Shown piece after piece: positions 623 through 19,037 of a DNA stretch of 21,807 bases. The DNA lies in IMG/VR virus record IMGVR_UViG_3300010297_000105, positions 1-21,807 of that record; one strand, given 5' to 3'. A program made the translations under genes and the position numbers. Source of the DNA: a virus. The notes below the pieces were generated by a model, which was given only the letters and a program-made list of their open reading frames with translations, was not told the origin of the DNA and made no database searches. Within the stretch, counting starts at the first letter, position 1. The number at the start of each line of letters is the position of its first letter.

Positions 623-1951
623 TTAGAAATTCAATGAGTGAATCACACCACAATGAGATGGCTTGCTAACAATAAGCTCACCGAAGAATCTTGTATCGAT
701 GATGTACTTATATCCAGAACCATCAGTTGCTCTGATTTCATAGAATTGCTTCCCATCAGGAGCAGTTCTTCTTTCAAAGAAATCGTTAGAGAAAAGCTTA
801 ACAGCCGACCAGTCGATCATGTAAACAATGTCGTCGTCCATTTCTTGTACACCAACAATAGTTAGTTTACCTTTAACGCCAACAACATCGATTTCAGTCC
901 AACCAAATGCGTTTACTCTAGTGTCAGCTACTCTGAAGTCACGTCCGTAACCACCAGACTCACCGAGTTCTAGGTTTCTCATACAGTGAGCAAGTCTCTT
1001 GTATGACATAATGTAGTCAGTAGGGTTACCCTTACCAACTTCTCTTGTTACATTGTATGCATCAAAAAGCTTCTCTAGGAAGTTGTTGGCAACGATACCT
1101 TCAGCAGTCCCGTCAATATTTACAGCTTGTAAATGTGGGTATGCAAGCTTGCTAATACCAAAAAGAGTTGAAGAAGCACCTGGAACACCTGGGGCTAAAA
1201 GTTGCTCTCTTAGAGATGTAAAACCTCTACCAGCAATCGAAGCGCCTTTAACAAAAAGCTTGTCACCAGCAGCTACAGAAGTAGGTCCAGCACCACCGTC
1301 GTTAAGAGCAGCAAGGTTAGCAGTAGCAGTTAAAGCCTTGTCTGTGTAAAGCGTAATCAACTTAGCACTGATATCAATTTGACCAACATAAAGTCCGTCT
1401 TGAGCGTTTTCACCAGCAGCCTTGTTTTGACCAACAACACCAACCTCGAAGAATTGACCGATAGACAATCTAGCAGGTCTGTCTACAGCAACAACACCGT
1501 TAGCAAGGTCTTCACCTGGCTCACCTAGAACTAAACTAGCGTGGTGTGTACCGTTGAGAAGGTTAACAGAAACAACTTCTTTCATTCTTCCGATGAACGC
1601 CTCTAGACGATCGGGAAGGATTTTTAAGAATGATTGCTTCATGTCACCGTGACGAGCCAAGTCGTGATCGTTGAATACCATAGAACCCCAAATCTCTTTG
1701 TAGTCCGTAACAGTACCGTTCACTGGCTTGTCTTCGTTGATCTCATCTTCTAATGTCATTTGCCCGTAAGCAAAAGAACTGGCATGAGCGCCCATAAAAG
1801 GAACTCTTAAAGTCCCACCTTTCCAGGTTTTATCTTTGTCTACTTTTCCAAGGAAGTAGTCCCTTTTCATTACCTCTTCAAACAATAGCTCATAGGGCAT
1901 ATACTCTTTAAGCATTGTATTGAAGTCGGCATTAGTTGTAGTAAATGGCAT
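623..1951 (-). CDS. Major capsid (coat) protein, HK97 fold
   Basis: A 442-residue protein placed directly after portal and scaffold, the standard slot for the coat protein; that length fits the family. It forms the icosahedral shell around the scaffold core. The N-arm (residues 1-60) has a helix followed by the motif WKGGTLRVPF at 43-52, typical of coat-protein N-arms. Residues about 140-250 look like an inserted glycine-rich beta domain (turns such as GVVGQNKAAGENAQDG), comparable to insertion domains of podovirus coat proteins. The C-terminal part is rich in aromatic residues. The ATG at 1951 has an AGGAG site 5-6 nt upstream, 13 bp from the scaffold stop. The N-arm motif recurs at the end of the gene at 8450-8803. 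The assignment rests on synteny plus sequence character. Confidence 0.92.
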   Translation of the reverse strand: MPFTTTNADFNTMLKEYMPYELLFEEVMKRDYFLGKVDKDKTWKGGTLRVPFMGAHASSFAYGQMTLEDEINEDKPVNGTVTDYKEIWGSMVFNDHDLARHGDMKQSFLKILPDRLEAFIGRMKEVVSVNLLNGTHHASLVLGEPGEDLANGVVAVDRPARLSIGQFFEVGVVGQNKAAGENAQDGLYVGQIDISAKLITLYTDKALTATANLAALNDGGAGPTSVAAGDKLFVKGASIAGRGFTSLREQLLAPGVPGASSTLFGISKLAYPHLQAVNIDGTAEGIVANNFLEKLFDAYNVTREVGKGNPTDYIMSYKRLAHCMRNLELGESGGYGRDFRVADTRVNAFGWTEIDVVGVKGKLTIVGVQEMDDDIVYMIDWSAVKLFSNDFFERRTAPDGKQFYEIRATDGSGYKYIIDTRFFGELIVSKPSHCGVIHSLNF

Positions 1952-1964
1952 AATGCTCTCCTAT

Positions 1965-3014
1965 TTACGCAACCCCAGAAGGAATCTGTCCCGAAAGCTC
2001 TTTCAGTCTCTCTAAAGTCATTCTGTCATTAATCTTATTAGAGTTATTTCCAGTGACCTTGGGGATCGTCGGTTGCTTTTCAACGACTTTTACCTGCTGT
2101 ACAGGTTGCTTATTATTAACTTTAGTTTCATGTTGTTCTTCAGACTTAGCTGCTAATGCTTCAATAAGAGGTCTTCTCATTTCGTACGCCTGTTTAACGA
2201 CTTCAGCCATTTCTGGATAAACCTTATGACCGCTTTCTTCAAACATTTTTGTACCAACTGCGATAACATCTTTCTCGAAGTCATAACCAACCTCGCCTAA
2301 CTTTTGTACTCCGGCAGAGTATTCGTCAGAATCCAAAATTGTCCTTAGCTGGTTCTTTTCTTCGGCAATGATCCTTTCGTGATCAACGTCTTGAAAACTA
2401 CCAACCTGACTTTCAAGGTGTTCAACCCTGTCCCTGAGTTTGCGCTCGGATTCAATCACCTTGCGCTGTTCTTCTGGAAGCTCTTGAAACTCAAGTATGC
2501 TTTCGGCATAATCAAGCAAGTCTTCCTTGTCCCAGCCAATGATCTGCACTAATCGATCCCAATCCTTATCGTCTCGGAGACTCTTAATGTTTTTGAACCC
2601 ATCAACCATTCTATGTAGTTGTGGACTAAGCTCATCTAACTGGCTCTGCAGCTCACTGTTCTTAGTTTTGTATCCGTCTAACCCAGCAGCTCTTGTATAC
2701 AAATCACGGAGACGATCTTCAGCCTCTTTTGTCGTGACAGCAGCTCTTAGGGCTTCGTCAAATTCCAAAACCTCATCTTTAACCTTGTAAGTAAAGTCTG
2801 GCGTGTACTCTACTAATTCTTCGGATGCCTCGACTTCAGGTTGCGCCCGGTCTTCCATGGTTTCAACTTGCTCGCTTTCGGCTGGCTCGTGAGTACCATT
2901 GGCTAATTCCTTAAGGTCTTCAATGCTTGTAATCTGCTCTGAAGATGAATCTTCCTCAACGCTTTCGACATCTTGTACTAATTCCTCTTCTACACTCTCA
3001 TTTTCTAAACTCAT
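1965..3014 (-). CDS. Capsid assembly scaffolding protein
   Basis: A 349-residue, very hydrophilic protein. The first 80 residues are strongly acidic and Glu/Ser-rich, residues about 95-215 form heptad-like helices (candidate coiled coil), and the end has more basic residues around KVVEKQPTIPKV. Scaffolding proteins of podoviruses have this build: a disordered acidic part, a long helical body and a basic C-terminal segment that touches the coat protein. The gene sits between portal and coat, as in P22- and T7-type phages. Its ATG overlaps the portal stop as ATGA and has an AAGGAG site. No protease motif is visible, so a scaffold that leaves intact is more likely than a self-cleaving one. Confidence 0.82.
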   Translation of the reverse strand: MSLENESVEEELVQDVESVEEDSSSEQITSIEDLKELANGTHEPAESEQVETMEDRAQPEVEASEELVEYTPDFTYKVKDEVLEFDEALRAAVTTKEAEDRLRDLYTRAAGLDGYKTKNSELQSQLDELSPQLHRMVDGFKNIKSLRDDKDWDRLVQIIGWDKEDLLDYAESILEFQELPEEQRKVIESERKLRDRVEHLESQVGSFQDVDHERIIAEEKNQLRTILDSDEYSAGVQKLGEVGYDFEKDVIAVGTKMFEESGHKVYPEMAEVVKQAYEMRRPLIEALAAKSEEQHETKVNNKQPVQQVKVVEKQPTIPKVTGNNSNKINDRMTLERLKELSGQIPSGVA

Positions 3015-8250: not shown

Positions 8251-8288
8251 AATAAACCTCTCCTTAACTCAATGATAGCATGGAATTG

Positions 8289-8346
8289 ATGGGAGTCAAA
8301 AACCCATAGACAGACTGATGCTTACTCCTGTGGGCTACTCTCCCAC
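8289..8346 (-). other. Two hairpins in the 5' leader of the packaging operon
   Basis: In the transcript from the promoter at 8356-8384, GTGGG/CCCAC (8330-8346, 7-nt loop) is followed by ATGGG/CCCAT (8289-8307, 9-nt loop). Both lie between the predicted start of transcription and the ribosome site of the first gene. They may stabilise the mRNA or tune translation. I see no known riboswitch and no tRNA fold. Confidence 0.35.
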
Positions 8347-8355
8347 CCCATACAT

Positions 8356-8384
8356 ATCATAAAATCCGTAAATAGCTGAATCAA
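8356..8384 (-). promoter_or_regulatory. Sigma70-type promoter of the packaging/head operon
   Basis: On the minus strand TTGATT (8379-8384), exactly 17 nt, then TATGAT (8356-8361). Transcription would begin near 8349 and read into the gene at 8250 and the whole head operon. Confidence 0.65.
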
Positions 8385-8449: not shown

Positions 8450-8803
8450 CTAATCTCGTACTTTAAATGGTACTGATATCGTACCACCTGTCCAATTGTG
8501 GTTCTGGACTCTTGATAGGAAATGATTGTCGTTTATATCATCTGCCGTAAGAAATCTGACCGGATCGCCATACATCTCATGTAGAGCCTCTGCCCAACTA
8601 AGCGTTGGAACCTGATTTAAAAGCCTGAAATAATGACGCTTCAGCATTAATCTGTATCGCTTCAACAGTTTCTCGTCTATAGTTCCGCGCTTCCATTTCT
8701 GTCTGGCTTTGTGTTCCTGGTAGAATCTCTTAAATGTTCTATATCTACGATGCCATTTAAACTTATCGCCCTTGGATAGTTTCTTAAATTCTTTCAATGT
8801 CAT
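8450..8803 (-). CDS. Unknown 117-residue basic protein with a capsid-like C-terminus
   Basis: Residues 1-65 are extremely basic and helical (RRYRTFKRFYQEHKARQKWKR), as expected of a nucleic-acid or coat-lumen binding part. Residues 95-113 (FLSRVQNHNWTGGTISVPF) match the N-arm of this phage's major capsid protein (residues 33-52): FL..V....W.GGT..VPF is shared, with one residue of gap. The protein stops 4 residues later, and no coat-like continuation is visible in any frame. The ATG at 8803 has GAGG upstream and its own promoter (8823-8851). It could be an internal head protein recruited by mimicry, an assembly modulator, or a capsid-gene relic fused to another gene. Function not known. Confidence 0.75.
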   Translation of the reverse strand: MTLKEFKKLSKGDKFKWHRRYRTFKRFYQEHKARQKWKRGTIDEKLLKRYRLMLKRHYFRLLNQVPTLSWAEALHEMYGDPVRFLTADDINDNHFLSRVQNHNWTGGTISVPFKVRD

Positions 8804-8822
8804 TGGTATACCTCACCATGGT

Positions 8823-8851
8823 ATATTACGAAAAAACCCCAGGCCCGTCAA
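8823..8851 (-). promoter_or_regulatory. Promoter overlapping a terminator
   Basis: TTGACG (8846-8851) lies in the loop of the terminator hairpin at 8831-8860. It is followed by exactly 17 nt and TAATAT (8823-8828). Transcription would start about 13 nt before the ATG at 8803, just including its GAGG site. The -35 is 5/6 and the -10 is 4/6 of consensus. Confidence 0.45.
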
Positions 8852-8860
8852 GGCCCAGGG
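8831..8860 (-). terminator. Strong intrinsic terminator after the metallopeptidase gene
   Basis: Minus-strand stem of 9 pairs (CCCTGGGCC with GGCCTGGGG, two G-T wobbles), 6-nt loop TTGACG, then six T residues. Just upstream in the transcript, AGGCGTA/TACGCCT (8867-8906) can form another 7-bp stem with a large loop. Confidence 0.85.
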
Positions 8861-8927
8861 TGGAGGAGGCGTACTAGATAGAGAGTGCGAGAGAGAAGAT
8901 ACGCCTAAGTTTATGATAAGCTTTTTT

Positions 8928-12541: not shown

Positions 12542-13324
12542 ATGAAATTGCTATCAATTCAAAGCGACGCAAAGACGATAAAAGGTGAAAATAGCCAAGA
12601 TATTCAAGACCTAATAAAAGAGCAGCTAAAGGCCTTGGGGTTAGCCGAAAACTCTAAATTTATGACGGCTATCCTATACCTAGAGCCAGACGAGATTTTA
12701 TGTCCACACGCATCAAAAGGATGCATGGCAGCGTGTCTCAAGTCATCTGGACGTATGGGAATGCATATGGCCGAAAATGCCAGGCTGCGTCGAACTGGGC
12801 TATGGCATAAGCATCGTGACGCATTTCTATATATGTTGACGCAGGAGATTGAGAAGTTTATCAAGAAAGCGGAGCGCAAAGGATTGACGCCAGTTGTTAG
12901 ACTCAATGGTACAAGTGACATCGTTTGGGAAGCGGTGCGTTTAGACGATGGCCAGACTATCTTTGAACGCTTTGCGTCAGTGCAGTTCTATGACTACACA
13001 CCCAATAAATATAGACTATCGCGTCAACTGCCGCCTAATTATCATCTAACTTTTAGCTTGAAAGAAGACAACAAAAGGCAAGCATTAGACGCATTGTCAG
13101 AAGGCCATAACGTGGCCGTAGTCTTTAGAAAAGAGCTGCCCAAACAATGGCATGGGTTCAAGGTTATAGACGGCGATAAGCATGATTTGAGATTCTTGGA
13201 CGGTCAAAATGTAGTAGTGGGATTAAAGGCAAAAGGCAAGGCAAGAAAGGACGAAAGCGGATTTGTGCAGGATGTTGAAGAATCATATCAACCTGCATCA
13301 TTTTTACAGGGAGCGTTAGCATGA
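12542..13324 (+). CDS. GP88-like phage protein with three-cysteine motif
   Basis: A 260-residue protein. The N-terminal third contains CPHASKGCMAACL with C54, C61 and C65 (and H56), a probable metal site. Then come ENARLRRTGLWHKHRD, VVRLNGTSDIVWE at about 98-110, FYDYTP near 129, and VIDGDKHDLRF followed by GLKAKGKAR toward the end. From memory this matches the phage family called gene product 88 (GP88), of unknown biochemical function; the layout vaguely recalls a barrel with a metal cluster at its mouth. The ATG follows AGAGGGGA, and its stop overlaps the next start (ATGA). It is the largest gene of the early cassette and its best landmark. Confidence 0.65.
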   Translation: MKLLSIQSDAKTIKGENSQDIQDLIKEQLKALGLAENSKFMTAILYLEPDEILCPHASKGCMAACLKSSGRMGMHMAENARLRRTGLWHKHRDAFLYMLTQEIEKFIKKAERKGLTPVVRLNGTSDIVWEAVRLDDGQTIFERFASVQFYDYTPNKYRLSRQLPPNYHLTFSLKEDNKRQALDALSEGHNVAVVFRKELPKQWHGFKVIDGDKHDLRFLDGQNVVVGLKAKGKARKDESGFVQDVEESYQPASFLQGALA

Positions 13325-16268: not shown

Positions 16269-16935
16269 AATTTATGCAATAGATATCGAGACTGTTAGCC
16301 AAGGCAAAAGAGCTAGGGATTATACAGACAATAAGCCGTATAAGCTCGGGAATGTTAAGGCTGAGGACAAAGTAAAAAAAGCACTTGAAGAAAAGAGAAA
16401 TGAAGCAGCAGCAAAGCATGGTTTATTTTGGTTTACTGGTAAAGTTGTCTCTATTGCTATCGTTGATATTTATGGCGATGATGAACCTGTATGTATCTAT
16501 GGTGTGGATGAAGTAGAGATATTAAAAAAAGCTTCAGTTTATTTAGATGGTCATAAATTATGGGGTATGTCTTCAGAAGGCTTTGATTGTCCTTTCTTAA
16601 TTGGAAGATACATGGCCAATGACTTGCCTATTCCAAGGTCTCTAAAGGCTGAGAATAGACTTGCTAATGATGTTAACAAGTTTTTTGGTTGGTCTACTTC
16701 AAGCTCACAAAGAGGCTCGCTTGCTGATTACATTCAAGGCTTAGGCATGGAGAAAAAACCGTTAACAGGAAATAAAGTCCAGGGTATCTATGACACTGTA
16801 TTAGCAGCTAAAATGGAAATGGATGAAGTTGCTGAGAAAGCAGCATGGAAAGAGATCATTGATTACAACATCTATGATTCGCAAGTAGTTAAGGAAATGG
16901 TTATTAAATACAATAGGGGGTATGATGGAAATTAA
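16249..16935 (+). CDS. Stand-alone 3'-5' exonuclease, PolB type (DEDDy)
   Basis: A 228-residue protein with the three exonuclease motifs: Exo I YAIDIET with D12 and E14, Exo II SEGFDCPFLIGRYMA with D113, and Exo III DYNIYD with Y206 and D210 (YxxxD, the DEDDy subgroup). This matches the family of predicted PolB-like 3'-5' exonucleases encoded apart from a polymerase. No polymerase domain follows. It would trim 3' ends of DNA, for proofreading or to make recombination substrates for the Sak4-like protein beside it. The ATG has GGAGGAG upstream. The end overlaps the next gene by 14 nt. Confidence 0.85.
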   Translation: MDYAAPKIYAIDIETVSQGKRARDYTDNKPYKLGNVKAEDKVKKALEEKRNEAAAKHGLFWFTGKVVSIAIVDIYGDDEPVCIYGVDEVEILKKASVYLDGHKLWGMSSEGFDCPFLIGRYMANDLPIPRSLKAENRLANDVNKFFGWSTSSSQRGSLADYIQGLGMEKKPLTGNKVQGIYDTVLAAKMEMDEVAEKAAWKEIIDYNIYDSQVVKEMVIKYNRGYDGN

Positions 16936-17614
16936 AAGTAGTAAAACAATATTAGACGACAAGAGAGTAAATAGTCTTTCTATCGGTGACAGTGGGAAGG
17001 GTAAAACCTTTTTCGCAGGAACAATTTGCGACCATGGGAATCCATTCTTTATTGATAGTGAAGGCGGATTGAAAACGATTGCCGATAAAGATTTCGAGTT
17101 CACTGAAGTTAATACTTGGAAAGAGTTCTTAGATGCTTGCGCTTGGTATTACAACAATTATCAATCGCACAGCTATACTCACTTAGTTGTTGATAGCTTC
17201 ACAAGGCTGCAGCATTACCTAGTAAAGGAAATCAATGCAGACGGAAAGCTAACGATCAATCAATGGGGCGAAGTATTAGCCGCGCTTAGAAAGGTTATTG
17301 ATAGACTGACTAAGACTTGCCCTACTAGCTTGCACGTTTCAGCTATGGCTCAGGAAAGCAAGGATGAATTATCTGGTTCGATTAAAATTTATCCAAACCT
17401 ACAGGGAGCTTTCAAGCATGATCTAGCAGGTTATTTTGACGTGGTACTTTACCATGACTGCGCTGAAAAGAACGGAGATCAGGTCTACTGGGTTCAGACC
17501 CAAGGCGACCAAAGAATTACAGCTAGGTCTAGATTAAACAGTGTTCACAAACTTAATAAGCATGAGAAGAATGATTACGAAATCATTGCAAACATTTTTA
17601 AAGGAGATAAGTAA
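16922..17614 (+). CDS. RecA-fold ATPase, Sak4-like recombinase
   Basis: A 230-residue single-domain ATPase. Walker A is IGDSGKGKT at 21-29, then FFIDSEGG, Walker B HLVVDS at 87-92, a polar sensor region around HVSAMAQESKD at 138-148, and a long C-terminal strand-helix section. This is the pattern of the phage nucleotide-binding AAA_24/Sak4 family, short RecA relatives that promote single-strand annealing with a cognate SSB. The immediate neighbours, an exonuclease and an SSB-like protein, fit that role well. The start is one of two adjacent ATGs (16922 or 16925) after AGGGGG. Its stop shares a base with the next start (TAATG). Confidence 0.88.
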   Translation: MMEIKSSKTILDDKRVNSLSIGDSGKGKTFFAGTICDHGNPFFIDSEGGLKTIADKDFEFTEVNTWKEFLDACAWYYNNYQSHSYTHLVVDSFTRLQHYLVKEINADGKLTINQWGEVLAALRKVIDRLTKTCPTSLHVSAMAQESKDELSGSIKIYPNLQGAFKHDLAGYFDVVLYHDCAEKNGDQVYWVQTQGDQRITARSRLNSVHKLNKHEKNDYEIIANIFKGDK

Positions 17615-18083: not shown

Positions 18084-19037
18084 GTGCATAAATATTATAC
18101 ATGGACTGACAGCGAGGGTTATTTTAGGGGTCAGCAATTACTGCATCGGACGCAAATTGCAGAATTGTTGAAGTATACAGCTAAACCTACTGAGGCCTTT
18201 GCAACGATTCAGGATTACGATGCTGAAGGAAATTGCATAGGATGCCCATTGTACTTTGATATTGATTCACCTTCCCTATGGGATGCATATCATGAAATGC
18301 AAGAGTTGGTTGAAGACCTCAGAGCCACATTGGAAGTGGAGCCGTCTGTCTGGTTTTCGGGGAGCAAAGGTTTTCATGTTGTGTGTCCCATATATATCCG
18401 GCACGAAAGATGCCATGAGATAGTTAAGATGATGGTAGATGATGTTACTGACATAGGAGACAGGTCAGTCTACAGAACTAGATCGATGTGGAGATGTGAT
18501 AATACTTGGAATGCTAAGGGTGAAAGGTTTAAAAACAGAGTTCGTCCAGAGCTTTCACTTGATGCCATATTAGTTCAGTCAAAAAACAAACATGACGGTA
18601 CTATACATGGATGGTCGATGAGAGATGCTAAAATCGATTCTTACGTTGCCAAACTTCCAACGTATACAGAACGTATACAAACTATTTCGGGCGATTTTGA
18701 GCAGGATTTTAAGCCCTGTATGAAGACGTTATGGCAGATGTCTAGCCCACCGGAAGGAAGCAGGCATAATTTATGCCATCTAATGGCCAGACATTGTTAT
18801 CGCTCAGGATTGAGCATTAATGAAGCCATAGCATTATTTGACGATCATCCCTACTGGGGAACGGTTAGAAGATCAGAAGGTCACTTTCCTGAGAAGATTA
18901 TCAGGTCAGTTTACAGGTCAGGAAAGGCGATGATAGGCTGTAAGAACGGGATTGATTCAGAATTATTACAACCATATTGCAGCAAGATGTGTAACCTCAA
19001 TGACGAGGTTAATATATTAGACTTTATAAAAATGTAG
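18084..19037 (+). CDS. DNA primase of the archaeo-eukaryotic (AEP/PrimPol) type
   Basis: A 317-residue protein. Motif I is PLYFDIDSPS with D59 and D61 (metal binding). Motif II is WFSGSKGFHVV with S92 and H98 (nucleotide binding). Motif III is probably DIGDRSVYRTRSMWR around 124-137. The C-terminal part has a helical segment (PEKIIRSVYRSGKAM) and Cys-rich GCKNGIDSELLQPYCSKMC, a likely structural zinc site. It would make primers, perhaps also polymerise, for phage replication. The start is GTG at 18084 after AGAGG; no helicase domain is fused and none is in the window. Confidence 0.85.
   Translation: MHKYYTWTDSEGYFRGQQLLHRTQIAELLKYTAKPTEAFATIQDYDAEGNCIGCPLYFDIDSPSLWDAYHEMQELVEDLRATLEVEPSVWFSGSKGFHVVCPIYIRHERCHEIVKMMVDDVTDIGDRSVYRTRSMWRCDNTWNAKGERFKNRVRPELSLDAILVQSKNKHDGTIHGWSMRDAKIDSYVAKLPTYTERIQTISGDFEQDFKPCMKTLWQMSSPPEGSRHNLCHLMARHCYRSGLSINEAIALFDDHPYWGTVRRSEGHFPEKIIRSVYRSGKAMIGCKNGIDSELLQPYCSKMCNLNDEVNILDFIKM

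Follow-up and report, generated by a model that had tools for sequence, protein, structure and literature searches.

The 21,807-nucleotide stretch of viral DNA analyzed in this study (IMG/VR record IMGVR_UViG_3300010297_000105, hereafter the window) encodes a small basic protein of 117 residues, and its C-terminal tail resembles the major capsid (coat) proteins of the same phage family, a resemblance that profile comparison confirmed as real and clearly above chance. We tentatively propose that this open reading frame (ORF) is an accessory gene whose product would combine a basic part with a coat-strand tail that contacts capsid subunits.

The ORF starts with ATG and is located on the minus strand (8450..8803, read from 8803 to 8450), where it is recognized by its open frame and in-frame coat-like tail. 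The ORF reported at 8450-8803 by the first-pass annotation is real, but its strand needed correction, as the plus strand of this interval contains many stops and is closed to translation. A Shine-Dalgarno-like GAGGT, noted by sequence reading, lies 6 nt before the start codon (8810..8814, minus strand). The codon score of the ORF is weak, yet similar to that of the adjoining metallopeptidase-like gene, and a 117-codon frame ending in an in-frame coat motif is best read as a gene, a small basic product encoded beside, yet outside, the head operon. Its residues 1-64 (8612..8803, minus strand) contain 23 K+R against 5 D+E, in agreement with the very basic N-terminal part described earlier, and are probably helical, the helix itself being a low-confidence prediction (pLDDT 54); folding of the whole protein from the single sequence gave a poor model, too poor for a structure search. 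The coat-like segment FLSRVQNHNWTGGTISVPF, delimited by profile and pairwise alignment, corresponds to residues 95-113 (8465..8521, minus strand). The shared pattern FL..V....W.GGT(L/I).VPF with one gap is indeed seen there and in the coat protein, whose residues 32-52 read as initially given; the pattern had been placed at the very end of the protein, but the residues KVRD intervene between it and the stop.

Smith-Waterman alignment of the tail with the coat of the window yields a score of 59 with one gap, which was reached by 2 of 5000 shuffles. This pair ranks at the top among the 595 gene pairs of the window (E 3e-4 per pair); however, one pair in the reversed-sequence null for these 595 pairs scores better, and therefore the pairwise match alone proves little. 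Scans of viral contigs provided 55 coat relatives, and a coat N-terminal profile (56 sequences, 60 columns) was searched against 8,247 ORFs from the window and related loci. The 117-residue protein is the only strong non-coat match (22.3 bits, E 3.2e-5), the next non-coat ORF being 14 bits lower (8.6 bits); omission of the window's own coat from the profile leaves its score at 22.1 bits, and none of 20,000 tail shuffles attained it (maximum 13.2 bits). With the A3 profile, which assigns the tail 22.7-25.3 bits, each relative among 38 whole records has one site, the coat, whereas the window has a second site (E 1.6e-6), and besides the window a second site was found only in record G036, where it is marginal. 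The best score of this profile among 177,635 distinct PDB sequences is 10.9 bits. The signal is confined to W104-K114: in a split profile, the NHNWTGGTISVPFKVRD part scores 20.7 bits (0 of 10,000 shuffles as good), whereas residues 65-100, covering the helical part, score -0.6 bits and are matched or exceeded by 1607 of 10,000 shuffles (16%). Extension of the homology to the whole coat N-terminus was accordingly rejected for the helical part. The core of the match, WTGGTISVPFK (residues 104-114; 8462..8494, minus strand), was located by the split profile and by 11-residue scoring.

The alignment with shuffled controls that had been proposed thus takes the resemblance beyond chance once related coats are included. 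A random C-terminus that happens to match the coat motif is improbable, given the profile E-value, the shuffles, the gap to the next ORF and the low PDB scores, although the core spans only 11 residues with an E-value by itself of 0.0022 in 8,247 ORFs, the pairwise score with the own coat is within reach of the reversed null, and two weaker look-alikes occur in other records at E about 0.1. In G036, a 66-residue ORF ending in VFKRVKKDENYKPEPIIVPLKDSK was considered as a second instance and discarded as probably unrelated (E about 0.1-0.2); its only relative is in L127, a record that lacks this coat family, and the two share VKKDENYKP but not VPF. Another look-alike is an 81-residue ORF of record G006 (L116 13777-14022, plus strand), identified by its coat-profile match, with a basic N-terminus followed by a sequence ending ...SFAWMMAYYLRDGQLKDAIRNMHSVFNLIPKEHDTWKGAYVPIPMNFKR. 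Among non-coat ORFs, it ranks second with the coat profile; hmmsearch aligns it to positions 5-48 and hhalign over 45 columns (probability 78), and it has the same basic-then-coat-like layout and ends just past the VPF position. It could suggest that the window protein is one of a broader class, small and basic, in which the C-terminal part resembles the whole coat N-terminus, but its hmmsearch E-value is only 0.05-0.15, BLAST finds no similarity between the two proteins and it has no homologues beyond itself, and we regard such a class as very improbable.

The coat itself is a 442-residue protein of the HK97 fold (623..1951, minus strand), assigned by structure match; its model, built from 49 relatives (pLDDT 87.9), is most similar to the cyanophage A-1(L) capsid (Z 19.0). 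A search of 50,697 phage records gave no match to it, Pfam had no family for it and PHROGs none that was useful; 55 relatives come from viral contigs, and another is encoded on an Acidobacteria MAG contig (L057). The window phage thus belongs to an uncultured phage family, the host of which is perhaps among the Acidobacteria. By sequence and the coat model, the counterpart of the tail is WKGGTLRVPFM, coat residues W43-M53 (1793..1825, minus strand). Helices H10-17, H20-30 and H32-36 of the model form the N-arm, whereas the model strands E48-55 and 75-81 should, from the order of elements, form the base of the E-loop. In the P22 coat, the N-arm comprises residues 2-30, the F-loop residues 34-50 and the E-loop residues 51-78 (PMC9965877). 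Based on this layout and the order of elements in the model, the shared stretch 43-53 probably sits at the F/E-loop boundary rather than in the scaffold-contacting N-arm helix. The tail had been described as a copy of an N-arm motif; since the match runs into the strand at the E-loop base and no signal comes from the N-arm portion of the profile, both this label and the reasoning that followed from it need correction. The tail keeps the near-invariant coat residues W43, G45, G46, V50, P51 and F52, and lacks the equally conserved R30, D31 and D40. The P- and A-domain core that follows the E-loop in the HK97 fold is absent from the 117-residue protein, which stops four residues past VPF, and the coat continuation (GAxASS..G) is not encoded 3' of the motif in any frame.

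The idea that the tail tracks its own coat did not hold. The window's coat ranks 19th of 56 in alignment to the tail, 18 of the 55 others being better, with the best score for L043 (76 vs 59). On the coat tree, the window belongs to a six-member clade (100/100 support), and the ten best-scoring relatives marked on it all fall into the other (sister) clade, which contains 50 rows; the best scorers overall belong mostly to that clade. At the DNA level, the motif shares 23 of 31 bases with the own coat gene and 30 of 39 with that of L020; the latter similarity of about 39 bases was equaled by none of 500 codon shuffles. Judged from these alignments, the DNA-level likeness of the tail to coat genes is old. 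Recent duplication of the own coat gene was rejected on the low identity at the motif and the higher scores of sister-clade coat genes, and a frameshifted or decayed coat gene was rejected because no coat-like sequence lies downstream in any frame.

Residual DNA similarity to coat genes, a tail nearer to the sister-clade coats, absence of the gene from all relatives examined and a stop soon after the motif are all consistent with a chimeric relic, in which a piece of a sister-clade coat gene recombined behind an unrelated small gene in a cargo slot and left a functionless tail. This explanation is less probable than coat contact and ranks close behind it: decay should strike conserved and free positions equally, whereas the positions kept are near-invariant and neighboring coat residues are gone, and there is neither a trace of the following GAxASS..G nor any signal in the helical part.

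Searches for homologues of the 117-residue protein were negative in 50,697 phage records, 72,556 plasmids, PDB, Pfam and PHROGs, as well as in 2.9 million viral contigs queried with six exact peptide seeds. Among 47 related records, the query was answered only by coats and by one marginal place in G024, a weak match of 77 residues that was discarded because there is no convincing protein there. A viral-contig scan for W.GG...VPF with a stop four codons later returned two stretches, which are chance occurrences unrelated to the coat or the 117-residue protein. The closest relative spanning the locus, L001, has a coat 69% identical to that of the window and keeps both neighbors, but encodes a 40-residue ORF in place of the 117-residue one; therefore the ORF is judged to occupy a variable slot, bordered by the metallopeptidase-like gene on one side and by the head operon on the other.

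The slot is flanked by putative regulatory sites on the minus strand, all of which are consensus-type matches only. A strong, terminator-like hairpin lies in the gap between the upstream gene and the ORF (8836..8861), overlapped by a sigma-70-like promoter TTGACG-17-TAATAT (8823..8851). Downstream of the ORF, two further promoter-like sites precede the head operon: TTGATT-17-TATGAT (8356..8384), the counterpart of which in L001 is TTGACT-16-TATTAT, and TTGACT-16-TATCAT (8272..8299), which also has an L001 counterpart. L001 has an 11-pair hairpin (635-672) in the corresponding position, following the metallopeptidase-like gene, with a different stem; the loop CUUGACGG is common to both hairpins and is preceded by TCTCGCACTCTCT in both. 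Of the traits of moron-type cargo genes, absence of the gene at the corresponding place in L001 is seen, whereas an own promoter and terminator are suggested by consensus matches only, and the hairpin lies upstream of the gene. Elsewhere in the window, the divergent early arm on the plus strand encodes a protein of PHROG 1617, a family whose function is not known (12542-13324, E 2.5e-72), a Sak4-like annealing protein and a primase-like protein (16922-17614 and 18084-19037).

An independent slot outside the head operon and a tail that fits other coats more closely than the own one would also agree with a decoy, that is, a coat mimic that poisons the assembly of sister-clade rivals or satellites, or occupies a coat-sensing host defence protein. 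Host defence systems that coat proteins trigger directly are known, namely CapRel and, as an older case, T4 Gol/Lit (PMC9712102), and prophage-encoded assembly blockers such as Tab exist (PMC10884400). However, no PADLOC defence family matches the 117-residue protein at E up to 1, 11 residues are short for a decoy, and the CapRel escape sites are elsewhere in the coat (residues 111-124; PMC9712102). Nothing in the data points specifically to coat-sensing defence or assembly blocking, and we consider a decoy unlikely.

We therefore return to the accessory protein that engages the coat, the leading though tentative explanation. The gene fills a variable slot, with the terminator-like hairpin on one side and the promoter-like sites of the head operon on the other; the basic helical part of its product would probably bind nucleic acid or bear charge, and its tail would copy the coat strand at the E-loop base, W.GG.(I/L).VPF. 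Most likely, the tail would engage coat subunits by pairing at the normal place of this strand, and the protein would thereby be drawn into the procapsid or modulate it; its expression, coat contact and effect on assembly are all inferred. This proposal is supported by the profile match, which is the only strong one outside coats, unmatched by 20,000 shuffles and far above all PDB sequences; by retention of near-invariant coat residues with a stop four residues after VPF; by an own slot on the head strand with a Shine-Dalgarno sequence and flanking signals; and by L001, which has the same flanks around a 40-residue ORF. A precedent is offered by at least nine small proteins of the same phage family that carry a scaffold-type C-terminal motif, described below, and the P22 coat is bound by the C-terminal helices of its scaffold (PMC9965877). 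On the other side are the better fit to sister-clade coats, the loss of R30, D31 and D40, the weak codon score and the poor model of the protein; moreover, the mimicked strand may have a structural role inside its own subunit and not form part of an interface, and no homologue that could reveal selection on the tail turned up in the collections searched. Regarding the original suggestion that the tail lets the protein occupy coat binding sites as an internal head protein or assembly modulator, the above-chance coat-like tail stands, whereas its N-arm basis and own-coat tracking do not.

The scaffold-like protein of the window (1965..3014, minus strand), recognized by its position and C-terminal conservation, has the C-terminal motif TLERLKELSG. 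By inference, the C-terminal motif S(I/L)xDLRKxA may bind coat in this family. A scaffold-tail scan revealed a second motif copy, SIEDLKELANG (ITSIEDLKELANG), near the scaffold N-terminus (2898-2933, minus strand), which is also present in L001 and G034. Scaffold homology of the N-terminus of the 117-residue protein was considered and rejected, there being no profile signal; the likeness of its MTLKEFKKLS to TLERLKELS is a post hoc 12-mer score only, as good in 1 of 1304 ORF starts.

Small non-scaffold ORFs of related phages repeatedly carry the scaffold motif S(I/L)xDLRKLA at their C-terminus or close to it. Leaving aside one scaffold fragment, a search of 11,640 distinct ORFs gave nine such ORFs, from seven records, at E<0.01, against none in the reversed control. 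These ORFs are located at L107 4290-4484, L106 11012-11341, L121 9702-9917, L086 19622-19888, L020 4556-4786, L102 3385-3600, L119 8339-8839, L119 11546-11785 and L101 2302-2517, and a whole-record scan found weaker scaffold-type tails in further records. The nine ORFs belong to several unrelated-looking groups, e.g., PKSIEDIRKMAKEMKDDSNY, KPKSIDDLRKLANAPGEDSEEE and IESIEDLKKLANEKMHEEEDMD, and their tails are candidate head-targeting peptides. They support the borrowing of head peptides in the family, though of the scaffold rather than the coat type. A general system, in which small proteins of this family are sorted to the assembling head by borrowed scaffold-type or, more rarely, coat-strand tails, the latter, like that of the 117-residue protein, inserting into coat subunits by strand donation, is conceivable, though we would consider it rather doubtful.

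The internal head proteins of T4 are small and basic, and a short peptide, the capsid-targeting sequence, directs them to the prohead; this sequence is N-terminal, scaffold-directed and cleaved. In contrast, the tail described here is C-terminal and coat-like, and the 117-residue protein matched no such family in Pfam or PHROGs. We know of no coat-like tails on the SaPI proteins CpmA and CpmB or on P4 Sid. These small capsid modifiers of satellites act on the coat assembly of another element as internal or external scaffolds (PMC5644958, PMC7552001), and no homology between them and the 117-residue protein was found. The C-terminus of P22 gp8 and similar scaffold-coat contacts are comparable in that a small protein touches coat subunits from the inside through a short peptide at its end (PMC9965877), as the window protein would; however, gp8 carries a coat-binding peptide, whereas the 117-residue tail resembles the coat itself, and scaffold and scaffold-tail profiles give no signal with the 117-residue protein. 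With HK97-fold coats it has W.GG.(I/L).VPF in common, the rest of the fold being absent.

If the tail binds coat, it would represent a natural case of a protein that gains entry to an HK97-type capsid, or controls it, by means of a coat-like strand instead of a scaffold peptide; peptides would allow a direct test of this activity, which would also be of use in cargo loading. If instead the tail is a relic, it records recombination between the coat genes of sister clades. For the family as a whole, the scaffold-like tails would provide a rule, based on sequence, to predict which of the uncharacterized small phage proteins travel inside the head.
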